Below, piece by piece: positions 10,157 to 37,869 of a stretch of DNA of 37,869 nucleotides. The DNA is taken from the NCBI GenBank assembly GCA_021299185.1, contig JAJTHZ010000083.1, positions 1 through 37,869 of the forward strand. The letters are read 5' to 3'. This DNA comes from Lysobacteraceae bacterium (GTDB lineage Bacteria > Pseudomonadota > Gammaproteobacteria > Xanthomonadales > Ahniellaceae). Numbering within the stretch: position 1 is the first letter of the stretch; every line of letters begins with the position of its first letter. Under the pieces are notes generated by a model, which was not told where the DNA came from, searched no databases, and worked only from the letters and a program-made list of their open reading frames with translations. A program made the translations under genes and the position numbers.

Positions 10157-11325
10157 GCGAACACGCTGGTCGGGTCGATGCGCATCACGCGCCGGATCGA
10201 GAACACCGCGCCGGCCGCGCACATCAGCCCGGTCAGCAGCGCGAGCACGACGGCGAGCCAGGCCGGCATGTCGATCGCGATGTTGCCGGTTCGCGAGATC
10301 GCCACCGCGACCCCGGTCGCGGCGAAACCGGCCGCGAAGCCGAGCACGGCGCTGATCGCCGCCTGCTTGAGGATCACCGCGTACAGGTAGGCGTTCGGCG
10401 CGCCCATCGCGCGCAGCGTGGCGTATTCGGGCAGGCGGTCGATGGTGCTGGCGTAGAGCGTCTGGCCGACGATCACGATGCCGACCACGAGGCCGAGCAG
10501 TGCAGCCAGGGTCAGCGCCGCGCCGGCGCCGGTGGTGACCAGCCAGTACACGCGGGTGGCGCGGGAGAACTCGTCGGTGGTCCACACGCGCACGTCGGGC
10601 ATGCGCGCGGCCAGCGCGGCGCGCACCATCTCGCGGTCGGCGCCGGGCGCGAGTTTCACCAGCACATAGGTCGTGCGGTCGTCGTCGACGAAGGTGTAGT
10701 GGCGCGCCTCGTCGTGGGCGACGAACACGTAGGGGCTCTGGGTGAAGGTGCGGATGCCGTCGGTGAAGCCGACCACGCGCGCGCGGCGGTTGTTGATCTC
10801 CAGCGTCTCACCGATCGCGCGCACGCCGAGTTTGTCCATGTACAGCCGGTCGAGGATGATGCCGCCGTCGACCGCGAGGTCGGCCACCGAGCCCTCGACC
10901 AGGTTCCACGGCCCGCCGATCGGGTCGGCGAGGTCGATGCCGACCATGATCACGCTCTCGTTGCCCCCGTCGGGCTTCTTCCAGAACGCGAACTGCACCA
11001 TGTAGTCGTGGGCCGACGCCACGCCCGGCACCGCCTGCGCCTGGTAGCGCCAGCGCTGCGGCAGGGTGCCGGTGATGTCGACATTGCTGGTGCCGGCGGC
11101 GGTGATCCACAGGTCCGCGCCCGCGCGGTCGATCAGGCTGGACGCGGTGCGCGCGAAGCCGACCAGCAGGCCCATCTGCACGCCCATCAGCACCACGCTG
11201 AACACGATGCCGACCAGGGTGATGACGAAGCGCGCGCGGTCGTGCGCGAGGTTGCGCCAGGCCAGCAGGGAGGTGCCCGGCACGCGGTGGCGGGCCAGGC
11301 GGCCGATGGATGCGGGGGTGCTCAT
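10153..11325 (-). CDS. DevC-type ABC transporter permease (FtsX family)
   Basis: 390-residue inner membrane subunit with one N-terminal transmembrane helix (about 32-55), a large periplasmic MacB-like domain (about 60-260) and three C-terminal helices, the layout and length of DevC. The segment before the first helix, LAWRNLAHDRARFVITLVGI, and the cytoplasmic TIDRLPEYATLRAMGA motif contacting the ATPase are typical. It is the first gene of a minus-strand operon and is divergent from bcp across about 130 bp (11326-11456), which must hold both promoters. DevC relatives export glycolipids, peptides or lipophilic compounds using mechanical rather than channel-type transport. Confidence 0.9.
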   Translation of the reverse strand: MSTPASIGRLARHRVPGTSLLAWRNLAHDRARFVITLVGIVFSVVLMGVQMGLLVGFARTASSLIDRAGADLWITAAGTSNVDITGTLPQRWRYQAQAVPGVASAHDYMVQFAFWKKPDGGNESVIMVGIDLADPIGGPWNLVEGSVADLAVDGGIILDRLYMDKLGVRAIGETLEINNRRARVVGFTDGIRTFTQSPYVFVAHDEARHYTFVDDDRTTYVLVKLAPGADREMVRAALAARMPDVRVWTTDEFSRATRVYWLVTTGAGAALTLAALLGLVVGIVIVGQTLYASTIDRLPEYATLRAMGAPNAYLYAVILKQAAISAVLGFAAGFAATGVAVAISRTGNIAIDMPAWLAVVLALLTGLMCAAGAVFSIRRVMRIDPTSVFA

Positions 11326-11456
11326 GCGGCCAGTATGCCGCCCGCGACGCCCGCGGCGCGTGCAGGGACTTGCGCGCCGGCACGCGCCTGAGGATGCTCA
11401 CCGCGCCGCGACGCGCCCTGCGTTGCGATCATGCCTTCCGACCCTGGAGCCCACCC

Positions 11457-12128
11457 ATGCGCAAGCCCGGCGATGCCGTCCCCGCTTTTTCCCTGCCCGC
11501 CAGCGACGGGCGCACCGTGAGCGACGTCGGCCTGCGCGGCCAGCGCTACGTGCTGTACTTCTACCCCAAGGACGACACGCCGGGCTGCACCAAGGAGGCC
11601 TGTTCGTTCCGCGACAACCTGCCGGCCTTCGGCGGAATGGGCGTGCCGGTGTTCGGCGTCAGCGCCGACAGCGAGGCCGCGCACCGCAAGTTCGTGCTCA
11701 AGTACGGCCTCAACTTCCCGCTGCTGGCCGACCCGGATCGGAAACTGATCGAGCCGATCGGCGCCTGGGTGGAGAAGAGCATGTACGGGCGGTCCTACAT
11801 GGGCATCGCGCGCTGCACCTTCATCGTCGGCGCCGACGGGCGCATCGAGCAGGTGTGGGAGAAGGTCTCGCCCGAAGGCCATGCCGCCGAGGTGCTGGCC
11901 GCGCTGGGCGGCAAGGCGGCACCGGCAACGCCCGCCGCCGCGAAGAAGCCAGCGGCAAAGGCGAAGCCCGCGGCGAAGAAGGTCGCGCCGAAGAAGGTCG
12001 CGCCGAAGAAGGCCGTGGCGAAGAAGACCGTGGCGAAGAAGGCCGTGGCGAAGAAGGCCGTGGCGAAGAAGACCGTGGCGAAGAAGGCCGTGGCGAAGAA
12101 GGCCGCCGCGAAGGGCCGCCGCCGCTGA
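11457..12128 (+). CDS. bcp: Peroxiredoxin Bcp with a C-terminal histone-H1-like Lys/Ala tail
   Basis: 223 residues. Residues 1-150 are a complete thioredoxin-dependent peroxidase of the BCP/PrxQ group: peroxidatic Cys44 in DDTPGCTKEACSFRD and resolving Cys49 five residues later. It reduces hydrogen peroxide and organic peroxides in the cytoplasm. Typical Bcp ends near residue 155; here about 70 extra residues follow, built of Ala, Lys, Val, Pro and Thr in pentapeptide units such as VAPKK, AVAKK and TVAKK, ending in GRRR. This resembles histone H1 or AlgP tails that bind DNA non-specifically. The ATG at 11457 is preceded by TGGAG. Palindromic repeats follow the stop. Confidence 0.93.
   Translation: MRKPGDAVPAFSLPASDGRTVSDVGLRGQRYVLYFYPKDDTPGCTKEACSFRDNLPAFGGMGVPVFGVSADSEAAHRKFVLKYGLNFPLLADPDRKLIEPIGAWVEKSMYGRSYMGIARCTFIVGADGRIEQVWEKVSPEGHAAEVLAALGGKAAPATPAAAKKPAAKAKPAAKKVAPKKVAPKKAVAKKTVAKKAVAKKAVAKKTVAKKAVAKKAAAKGRRR
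11973..12113 (+). repeat. 15-bp in-frame coding repeats (xVAKK units)
   Basis: About nine imperfect 15-bp units of the form GTGGCGAAGAAGRCC encode the repeated pentapeptides of the Bcp tail. All changes between units keep the frame. Such arrays gain and lose units by slippage, so tail length probably varies among relatives. Confidence 0.85.
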
Positions 12129-12142
12129 AACGTGCGCCCGCT

Positions 12143-12300
12143 GTGGGAGCGAGCAGCGCTCGCGACCGCACCACCGGTGATCGCGACACCTCCGGGTGTC
12201 GCGGTCGCGGGCGCTGCTCGCTCCCACAGGGCCCGGGCGATCGACACCTCCGGGTGTCGCAGTCGCGAGCGCTGCTCGCTCCCACAGGGCCCGGGCGATC
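12143..12300. repeat. GTGGGAGCGAGCAGCG palindromic repeats, one forward and two reversed
   Basis: One forward copy (GTGGGAGCGAGCAGCGCTCG from 12143) faces two reversed copies ending CTCGCTCCCAC at 12227 and near 12285. The reversed copies lie in about 60-bp tandem units, each also carrying a small hairpin GACACCTCCGGGTGTC with a TCCG loop and the shared tail AGGGCCCGGGCGATCG. The cluster fills most of the gap between bcp and the DUF2782 gene and may end the bcp transcript. Confidence 0.85.
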
Positions 12301-12362
12301 GTGCCTGGGCCGGTCTGGCCAGCGCTTTGTTATCCTCCCGCATCGCCCTGGAGTAGCCCGCC

Positions 12363-36200: not shown

Positions 36201-36515
36201 TCAATCCCACACTTCGCGGACGAGTTCGTCCGGTGCGGAGGCGGGATTCCAGTTCCTGCCGAAGACCAGCCAACCCTGGCGAAGGCCACCGCCCGGTTCG
36301 CGGATGCGCACCCGGAAGGTCGTCTGGTTCTCGCTGCGCAGCAGACCCCCGGGGCCCTCGAAGGACGCCGCGCCGCGATACGACAGCACCACCACGCCGC
36401 GTCGCTTCGCCCACGCGTCGATGCGCTTCTTCCAATAGACCTTGCCCCAGGCGAGCATGAGGTAGGCCGCCGCCGCGATGCCGCCGACGAAGCCCACCCA
36501 CTGCAGGATCTCCAT
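36201..36515 (-). CDS. Small single-span membrane protein of unknown function
   Basis: 104 residues. One transmembrane helix near the N terminus (LQWVGFVGGIAAAAYLMLAW) leads to a basic cytoplasmic stretch and a small beta-rich C-terminal region (TTFRVRIREPGGGLRQGWLVFG). I do not recognise the family. The ATG is preceded by GGAGG at a spacing of 8, so translation is likely. It lies upstream of the broken CPBP gene on the same strand with 73 bp between. Confidence 0.65.
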   Translation of the reverse strand: MEILQWVGFVGGIAAAAYLMLAWGKVYWKKRIDAWAKRRGVVVLSYRGAASFEGPGGLLRSENQTTFRVRIREPGGGLRQGWLVFGRNWNPASAPDELVREVWD

Positions 36516-36765
36516 CGCGTCCGCCTCCGGTCCGGGCGGCCACGAGCCGCATCGAGAGCCGCATGGAATCGCACGCCGGCGCCCGACACCCGTGCCGGAA
36601 GTCCGTGCGCGCGGCGAATGTCGTGAAGAACGCGCGAGCGGCGTGCTGCCGGTGAACGACCGCGCGACGTCCCGGCATGGCGACGGGGACCAGGGGCCCG
36701 CGTGGACAGTCCAGCGCGCGCGTCGCAAGATCGACGCGTCCTTCCCCATCCGGATGACCCACGCC

Positions 36766-37212
36766 ATGCGCCTGCCCACCCTCCTGCTCTGCCTCGCCGC
36801 GCTGCCCGTGGCCGCGCACGACGTGATCCCGGAACACGAGAAGGAGGCCGCGCAGCGCCTGCTGGCCGATGGGCCGAAGGAGACGCGCGGTGTGGAGTCG
36901 GCCGCCGAGATCGGCAGCGTGCCGCTGGATGGCGAGATCCCGGGCGCCGAGGGCACGGTGCTGCGCGCACGGCACTTCGTGCTGGCGCCCGGCGCGCAGA
37001 TCGCGGTGCACGAGCATCAGCAGCGCCCGGGCATGGCCTACGTGCTGGAGGGCGAGCTCACCGAGTACCGCAACGATGCCGATGCGCCGATCAAGCGCGG
37101 CGTCGGCGCCGCGGCGTTCGAACGCACCGGCGTCGTGCACTGGTGGAAGAACGAGACCGACCGGCCGGCGCGCGCGCTGGTGGTGGACATCGTCGACGCG
37201 GCAGCGCGCTGA
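36766..37212 (+). CDS. Secreted cupin domain protein
   Basis: 148 residues with a signal peptide (MRLPTLLLCLAALPVAAHD), so periplasmic. The single cupin domain has the metal-ligand pattern VHEHQQRPGMAYVLEGELTEY in its first half and GVVHWWKNETDRP in its second. Small cupins of this type bind a metal and have varied or unknown roles. The ATG at 36754 is an alternative start; 36766 is preferred for its GGA at a suitable distance. A small membrane protein gene follows after three bases. Confidence 0.78.
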   Translation: MRLPTLLLCLAALPVAAHDVIPEHEKEAAQRLLADGPKETRGVESAAEIGSVPLDGEIPGAEGTVLRARHFVLAPGAQIAVHEHQQRPGMAYVLEGELTEYRNDADAPIKRGVGAAAFERTGVVHWWKNETDRPARALVVDIVDAAAR

Positions 37213-37215
37213 GCG

Positions 37216-37479
37216 GTGCGAGACGTCCTCGGGATCGCCGCACTCGTCGGAGCGCTCGGCTTCGCCGCGGCAGGCTATTCGCTGATGGACTCCAGCGGCT
37301 ACGAGAAGCTGCTGGCGCTCTTCATGTGGCTGGGGTCGTTCGGCCTGTTGCTGGTGGGCCTGGGCGCGCTGCGCGACTCGCGCCATCCGGGCGTCGCGCG
37401 CGCGGCGAAGGGATTGTTCTGGATCCTCGTCGGCCTGATGGCGTTGCTGACCTTGGTCGAGCGATTCGGTGGCGCGTGA
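37216..37479 (+). CDS. Small hydrophobic membrane protein of unknown function
   Basis: 87 residues with a GTG start immediately after the cupin stop, so probably translated by coupling. Three hydrophobic helices are seen (about 4-22, 32-50 and 66-83). Not recognised as a named family. Confidence 0.6.
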   Translation: MRDVLGIAALVGALGFAAAGYSLMDSSGYEKLLALFMWLGSFGLLLVGLGALRDSRHPGVARAAKGLFWILVGLMALLTLVERFGGA

Positions 37480-37504
37480 GCACGGCGCCGCGGCAGGGTC
37501 GGCG

Positions 37505-37869
37505 CTCGGCCGCGGCATCGGAACCCGCCGCGAGCATGGGGGTTGCGGTCGCCCGCAAGCGGGCTCCTACGTCACGCGGCGCCTCGCGTAGGAGCGCGCT
37601 TGCGCGCGACCGCGGCAGCGGAACCCACCGCAAGAATGGGGGTTGCGGTCGCCCGCAAGCGGGCTCCTACATCACGTGGCACCTCGCGTAGGCGCGCGCT
37701 TGCGCGCGACCGCGGCATCGGAACCCGCTGCGAGCATGGGGGTTGCGGTCGCCCGCAAGCGGGCTCCTACATCACGCGGCACCTCGCGTAGGAGCGCGCT
37801 TGCGCGCGATCGCGGCAGCGGGACCGGCCGCGAGCATGGGGGTTGCGGTCGCCCGCAAGCGGGCTCCTA
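37505..37869. repeat. Tandem array with an exact 100-bp period, running past the window end
   Basis: The block beginning GGTTGCGGTCGCCCGCAAGC occurs at 37541, 37641, 37741 and 37841, exactly 100 bp apart. Each 100-bp unit carries two different palindromes: GTCGCCCGCAAGCGGGCTCC and GTAGGAGCGCGCTTGCGCGC, joined by short spacers (for example ATCACGCGGCACCTC). Units differ at only a few positions. At least 3.6 copies are present and the array is cut by the window edge. The second palindrome is the same family as the doublet at 933-1016. No gene is seen here. Confidence 0.95.

Follow-up and report, generated by a model that had tools for sequence, protein, structure and literature searches.

A 100-bp tandem array of paired GTAG-tagged REP sequences, probably a BIME-2-type cluster, at a contig end of a draft bacterial genome

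Organization of the array

The window (the whole stretch analysed, 37,869 bp) is an entire contig, C241 (C241:1-37869), of a draft assembly of 270 contigs and 4.84 Mb. Close to its right end, a cupin-domain protein gene (36760-37212, plus strand) is followed by an ORF of 87 aa without Pfam match (37216-37479, plus strand) and, directly downstream, by a tandem array that begins at 37502 and is truncated at the window end, which is also the contig end. Tandem Repeats Finder describes 37502-37869 as 3.7 copies of period 100 with 91% matches, 0% indels and a score of 631. A repeat search places the unit starts exactly 100 and 100 bp apart, head to tail. Together with a scan for the REP pattern, both bear out the exact 100-bp tandem array reported in a first-pass annotation of this DNA.

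Each unit carries two 24-nt REP sequences, type A (GTAGGAGCCCGCTTGCGGGCGACC) on the minus strand and type B (GTAGGAGCGCGCTTGCGCGCGACC) on the plus strand. The REP pattern has six matches in the window array (four with 0 and two with 1 mismatch), in which minus-strand A and plus-strand B alternate strictly; the dinucleotide-shuffled window gave a mean of 0.00 matches at up to 3 mismatches. Complete type A copies of units 1 to 3 occupy 37547-37570, 37647-37670 and 37747-37770, while that of unit 4 is one base short at the window end (37847-37869, 23 of 24 nt). Type B copies are found at 37588-37611 and, with one mismatch each, at 37688-37711 and 37788-37811. A type B copy, a 35-nt linker and an inverted type A copy form an 83-bp REPIN with the GTAG ends outside (REPIN 1, 37588-37670; REPIN 2, 37688-37770; REPIN 3, 37788-37869, truncated to 82 of its 83 bp by the contig end). 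The REPINs are separated by 17-bp spacers (37571-37587, 37671-37687 and 37771-37787). At the left array edge the first type B copy is missing or decayed; a weak gapped alignment (5-nt gap) points to a possible remnant at 37493-37511 on the plus strand.

Both types are palindromes within the 20-40 nt of REPs with GTAG at one end. They differ by one base swap across the stem that keeps the palindrome and are thus two variants of a single GTAG-tagged REP family. Of the two different palindromes, or families, annotated previously, the two sequence types stand but the two families do not. Folded as single-stranded DNA, the segments 3' of GTA(G) form small hairpins of -6.1 (A) and -7.6 kcal/mol (B), and the A-B REPIN 37588-37670 a long interrupted hairpin of -35.6 kcal/mol. 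Two inverse REPs joined by a linker with GTAG outside are the arrangement of a REPIN or BIME, and the tandem repetition of such pairs is that of a BIME-2 or REPIN cluster.

Continuation on a second contig

The array runs on beyond the window, as had been predicted. One end of contig C13, reverse-complemented, opens with 133 bases identical to the window end (a dovetail) and continues the array for 301 bp past this overlap. The joined array measures about 669 bp (about 6.7 units, with 7 A and 6 B elements), and 96 bp separate its end from the start of an M24-peptidase gene; it thus lies between this gene and the 87-aa ORF. No two of its six full units are the same; they show 14 variable columns of 100 and pairwise identities of 91-98%, for which the earlier description as near-identical copies was loose.

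Among the 95 genomic matches listed, C13 is the only other site with a long match to the array at ≥90%. Within the C13 stretch, the terminal 40-80 bases of the window can be placed at two positions, and their placement becomes unique only from 100 bases, a likely reason why the assembler stopped there. A scan of 22 contig ends, two of which (C14 and C45) lack a REP within the 800 bases examined, found exact dovetails of at least 25 bases only for C241-C13 (133) and C5-C166 (75). Synteny was searched at 80 M24 loci (the best 80 of 180 relatives, with flanks of up to 6 kb, shorter in some), and none had a tblastn match (E ≤1e-5) to the cupin protein or the 87-aa ORF, or a REP (≤3 substitutions). 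The argument for the adjacency of C241 and C13 is therefore the dovetail itself. The closest M24 relatives listed come from Aquimonas voraii (Lysobacteraceae) and a Silanimonas MAG (78% identity each), in a list that may omit records of the genome analysed here. Judged by this one protein, the source of the window is most likely an undescribed genus within Lysobacterales.

The array thus accounts for the end of contig C241 at this point and probably links the two contigs. Its copy number is that of the draft assembly, and further copies may be hidden in the C241-C13 join. Among the fetched ends, at least 15 contig ends in addition to those of C241 and C13 have such REPs no more than about 60 bases from the terminus (L226, L230, L235, L241, L242, L243, L245, L247, L254, L257, L260 and L266-L269). 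REPs near so many contig ends suggest that such arrays are one cause of the fragmentation of this assembly.

REPs, pairs and arrays across the genome

The REP pattern is dispersed in high copy number, as is typical of REPs: at up to 2 mismatches it has 415 matches in the 4.84 Mb (213 forward and 202 reverse), compared with 0 for a reversed-pattern control. Pairs with GTAG outside comprise 105 of A-B type (0 in the control), 8 of B-B type and 3 A-A matches, one of which (on C202, with a 49-nt linker) was excluded as probably due to chance. The A-B count includes two matches that may also be due to chance, C121:2967 (one weak REP only) and C236:20110 (39-nt linker). Pairs with GTAG inside were found at 93 sites, versus 1 in the control. 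Dozens of tandem arrays of paired REPs are present. In 43 stretches, a non-random sample picked from REP or pair matches, the linker within outside pairs is 34-37 nt long in 116 of 120 cases, and the spacers between pairs, counted up to 130 nt, range from 12 to 125 nt. In a stretch of C219 (L248 1063-1431), REPs on the same strand follow one another at intervals of about 86 bp; their inverted partners match at best the 10-base core and not the REP scan.

Spacers are alike within arrays and unlike between them. Their mean identity is 0.835 within a stretch (102 comparisons) and 0.463 between stretches (5151); for the pair linkers the values are 0.824 (131) and 0.604 (6310). In both cases 0 of 1000 label shuffles reached the within-stretch value, and cases with untyped REPs (6 of 120 linkers, 4 of 107 spacers) were dropped. 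Some stretches are probably split halves of one array (C5/C166, from their dovetail; C22/C125, C120/C121 and C53/C97, from similar spacers), so that the between-stretch identity is too high rather than too low. This pattern indicates that the arrays most likely grew locally: the 83-bp REPIN would most likely be the dispersed unit, each array having grown at its own site.

The flank outside an array edge resembles the spacer of its own array more than that of any other at 9 of 47 edges, where about 0.6 would be expected by our own reckoning; in this test the stretch C24rayt combines two separate clusters. As a source of the spacer, the edge flank is not first-ranked at the other 38 edges, the window array among them. 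There, the similarity of the right flank to its own spacer is equalled or beaten in 45 of 82 foreign comparisons, so that a flank origin of the 17-bp spacer is unproven at this array. Of seven stretches with at least 4 spacers, two (C6b and C24b) show a clear two-unit period, consistent with slippage or unequal exchange in two-unit steps; the period is weak or absent in the remaining five. Two unlike spacers alternate in L228 1070-1501 and L232 999-1480, where the true repeat is two units. These alternating arrays resemble a higher-order satellite repeat.

Within arrays (31 of the 43 stretches, namely those with enough linkers, spacers shorter than 60 nt and untyped REPs dropped), REPs have a mean identity of 96%, pair linkers of 86% and spacers of 82.5%. 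REPs are more conserved than pair linkers in 28 of the 31 and than spacers in 30 of the 31, in a comparison that is biased toward REPs because they were found by similarity (≤5 substitutions). When the window array is divided into units by its period, variation is seen in 3 of 48 columns within REPs and in 11 of 52 within linkers (p = 0.043). The divergence of the linkers argues against a fresh amplification, and the recent origin proposed in the first-pass annotation is not upheld. It suggests that the REPs may be kept constant by selection, conversion or re-supply.

A RAYT gene flanked by the same REPs

The array had been called REP-like, and a search of the genome for the associated transposase (RAYT) had been proposed. 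Four matches to Pfam Y1_Tnp are found in the genome. One of them, C24:37843-38343, is an intact RAYT gene of 167 aa with HWH at 73 and Tyr 133 (in RYIVANP), which we take, by analogy, to be the catalytic residues. The product scores 132.3 bits against NCBIfam NF047646 (REP-associated tyrosine transposase; cut-off 80) and 40.7 bits against Pfam Y1_Tnp, and matches E. coli TnpArep (4er8) with E = 1e-5. A and B REPs lie on both sides of the gene, the flanking arrangement of a RAYT and its REPs, which supports the proposed link to a RAYT. The sequence retrieved around each of the other three Y1 matches contains no A or B REP at up to 4 substitutions. On C219 (L067) a further Y1/RAYT-like gene carries an in-frame TGA in the matched stretch.

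The REP pattern (≤2 mismatches) occurs in 4 of the 61 genomes searched, this one included, and in 0 of 9 other members of the family, while a relative of the RAYT (E ≤0.001) is found in 41 of the 61. The REPs therefore seem to be lineage-specific.

Comparison with published REP systems

We take the authors of PMC2817692 to be Nunvar and others, those of PMC3116915 Bertels and Rainey, and those of PMC3733652 Di Nocera and others. All three papers, together with PMC8266576, describe paired REPs in tandem clusters in the relevant passages, and BIME or REPIN tandem clusters beside RAYTs are also in print. With these reports, and with dozens of such arrays in the genome itself, the contrast drawn previously with REPs that normally occur as singles or doublets does not hold. 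The array is a further case of the published BIME/REPIN tandem clusters, with which its array-specific spacers also agree. It adds a REP-rich genome with a predicted cognate RAYT to the known picture.

The E. coli BIME-2 (Y and Z2, flanking yafM on both sides), as presented in the cited part of PMC2817692, likewise consist of two alternating REP variants in tandem units, and their cognate RAYT is embedded in the same REPs. They differ from the present array in REP sequence. The same source reports RAYTs that have two dissimilar REPs at their flanks (Y and Z2 in E. coli) and the binding of DNA gyrase to BIME-2. In published work on the E. coli enzyme, in the part drawn on here, TnpAREP cleaves the single-stranded REP but not the inverted REP.

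The REPs of Xanthomonas campestris (GTAGGAGCGCGCTCGCGCGCGA), an organism of the same bacterial order as that of the window if the placement of the latter is right, are nearly the same as type B. Their centre is CTCG instead of CTTG, and a single REP type is listed for them in the cited table of PMC2817692, with values of 48/177/223 (48 being exact copies) compared with 415 matches at up to 2 mismatches here. According to the corresponding passage, they occur mostly in large alternating clusters. The Stenotrophomonas BIMEs described there also contain slightly altered REPs with a preserved palindrome, as in A and B. Their inter-REP segments show no homology between clusters and are of unequal lengths, the pattern observed here, which that paper reads as repeated independent origin. 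However, they involve other REP families, and some are hybrids of the REPs of two RAYTs.

In P. fluorescens SBW25, the passages considered from PMC3116915 describe 16 clusters in which REPINs and their flanks are arranged head to tail, REPIN clusters beside RAYT genes, as well as GI-GIII arrays with two REP groups in tandem and up to 12 REPs. Both are similar to the present arrays. The tandem REPINs of SBW25 are nearly identical and belong to groups GI, GII or GIII, whereas each REPIN here joins A with B, and the steps of the GI-GIII arrays are 112 and 72 bp as opposed to 59 and 41. The A and B REPs share their GTAG head with the GTAG-tagged super-family of PMC3733652, in which, in the part cited, dimers are reiterated in tandem together with flanking DNA. 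The portion of the main text of that paper covered here has no occurrence of Xanthomonas or Lysobacter, and in the portion of the RepRanger paper (PMC12306157) covered here nothing was found on tandem arrays.

Formation of the array

The array is best read as a BIME-2-type cluster in which a REPIN was inserted and then repeated locally in tandem, a reading to which we assign a probability of about 0.9. A REPIN of about 83 bp, made of inverted GTAG-tagged B and A, would have been inserted between the small ORF and the M24-peptidase gene, and the REPIN together with a 17-bp spacer would then have been repeated to about 6.7 units. The C24 RAYT, a putative single-strand Y1/HUH transposase, probably moved the REPIN, while the tandem copies would have been generated at the array by replication slippage or unequal exchange and not by repeated transposition. 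The 60 relatives returned include no genome of the same genus, and thus no empty or shorter site for comparison. By analogy only, the array might have a role in the host as a gyrase site or through effects on transcription or mRNA ends.

It is possible, though rather unlikely, that the RAYT itself made the tandem copies, by repeated single-strand insertion or copying beside the REPIN rather than by slippage or recombination. Its gene sits within a REP cluster, and PMC2817692, in the relevant passages, questions whether such clusters can arise by slippage or recombination alone, considers differences between strains unlikely to result solely from these processes, and hypothesizes a RAYT-catalysed mechanism, with a direct association with BIMEs given for one third of rayt genes. 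However, each pair was copied together with its spacer, so that the spacers of an array are alike, and two of seven arrays step by two units; slippage or unequal exchange yields both spacer copying and two-unit steps, although a RAYT mechanism that also copies the flank is conceivable. For the stages following insertion, growth by slippage or unequal exchange is preferred to copying by the RAYT.

An expansion or stutter of a shorter array during assembly is very improbable. Such an artefact might be suspected in a contig that ends inside the array, in an assembly of 270 contigs of which other ends bear such arrays, but the six full units are all distinct, with their 14 variable columns of 100, both contigs stop within the array, and their ends have the 133-base dovetail in common. 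A collapse, leaving too few copies, is a likelier error than an expansion. Even less probable is an array of another kind, such as a CRISPR, integron attC sites, a repeated structured RNA or a coding repeat, in spite of the regularly spaced palindromes and the open frames that cross the array. The spacers are copies of each other rather than the unique spacers of a CRISPR, and the REP elements occur 415 times in the genome; the open frames probably stem from the paucity of stop codons in the REP sequence. A search of 36500-37869 against Rfam gave 7 matches (E ≤1), all to microRNA families; the best scored 34.5 bits against a gathering score of 168, and scores so far below the gathering level are taken as chance hairpins.

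Unlike and like arms

Nearly all arrays consist of A-B pairs, and B-B pairs are mostly found singly. A-B pairs are far more frequent than expected under random pairing of arms (105 versus 57). They are also found next to one another: 74 of 100 (100 of the 105 being listed) lie within 260 bp of another dimer, compared with 1 of 8 B-B pairs (Fisher p = 0.0009, dimers within one array not being independent). A pair counted as alone was so judged from the listed dimers only. REP-level scans place many of the 26 A-B pairs scored as alone in clusters, which strengthens the contrast, while the B-B pair of C55 has a further B alongside, which weakens it. An isolated B-B REPIN of the REP family of the array lies at 933-1016 of the window; this one B-B pair was folded, and its near-perfect long hairpin reaches -49.9 kcal/mol as single-stranded DNA, against the -35.6 kcal/mol of the A-B pair.

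It is nevertheless doubtful that tandem amplification in this genome is open only to the imperfect A-B REPIN and that the self-complementary B-B REPIN is confined to single copies. The A/B base swap between the arms would break the long perfect hairpin, which might allow the array to survive replication or hairpin nucleases, but tandem clusters of like-armed REPINs are described for P. fluorescens in the cited part of PMC3116915. The A-B/B-B contrast was not found in a literature search of partial coverage. The genome offers a clean data set on the growth of tandem REPIN clusters, with dozens of arrays that mostly have their own spacer; it could also serve to test whether unlike arms are needed for growth.

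Other repeats in the window

A second REP-like repeat is present at 12142-12301 of the window and includes a 58-bp tandem pair at 12184-12301. The 14-mer TGCTCGCTCCCACA occurs there three times (12142-12286); a further 8 copies flank the Y1 transposase gene of contig C35. Slightly upstream, an ORF (11310-12128, plus strand), presumably peroxiredoxin-like by its motif, ends in a lysine/alanine tail with KKAVA-type repeats, encoded by about ten 15-bp units (repeat 11963-12113).
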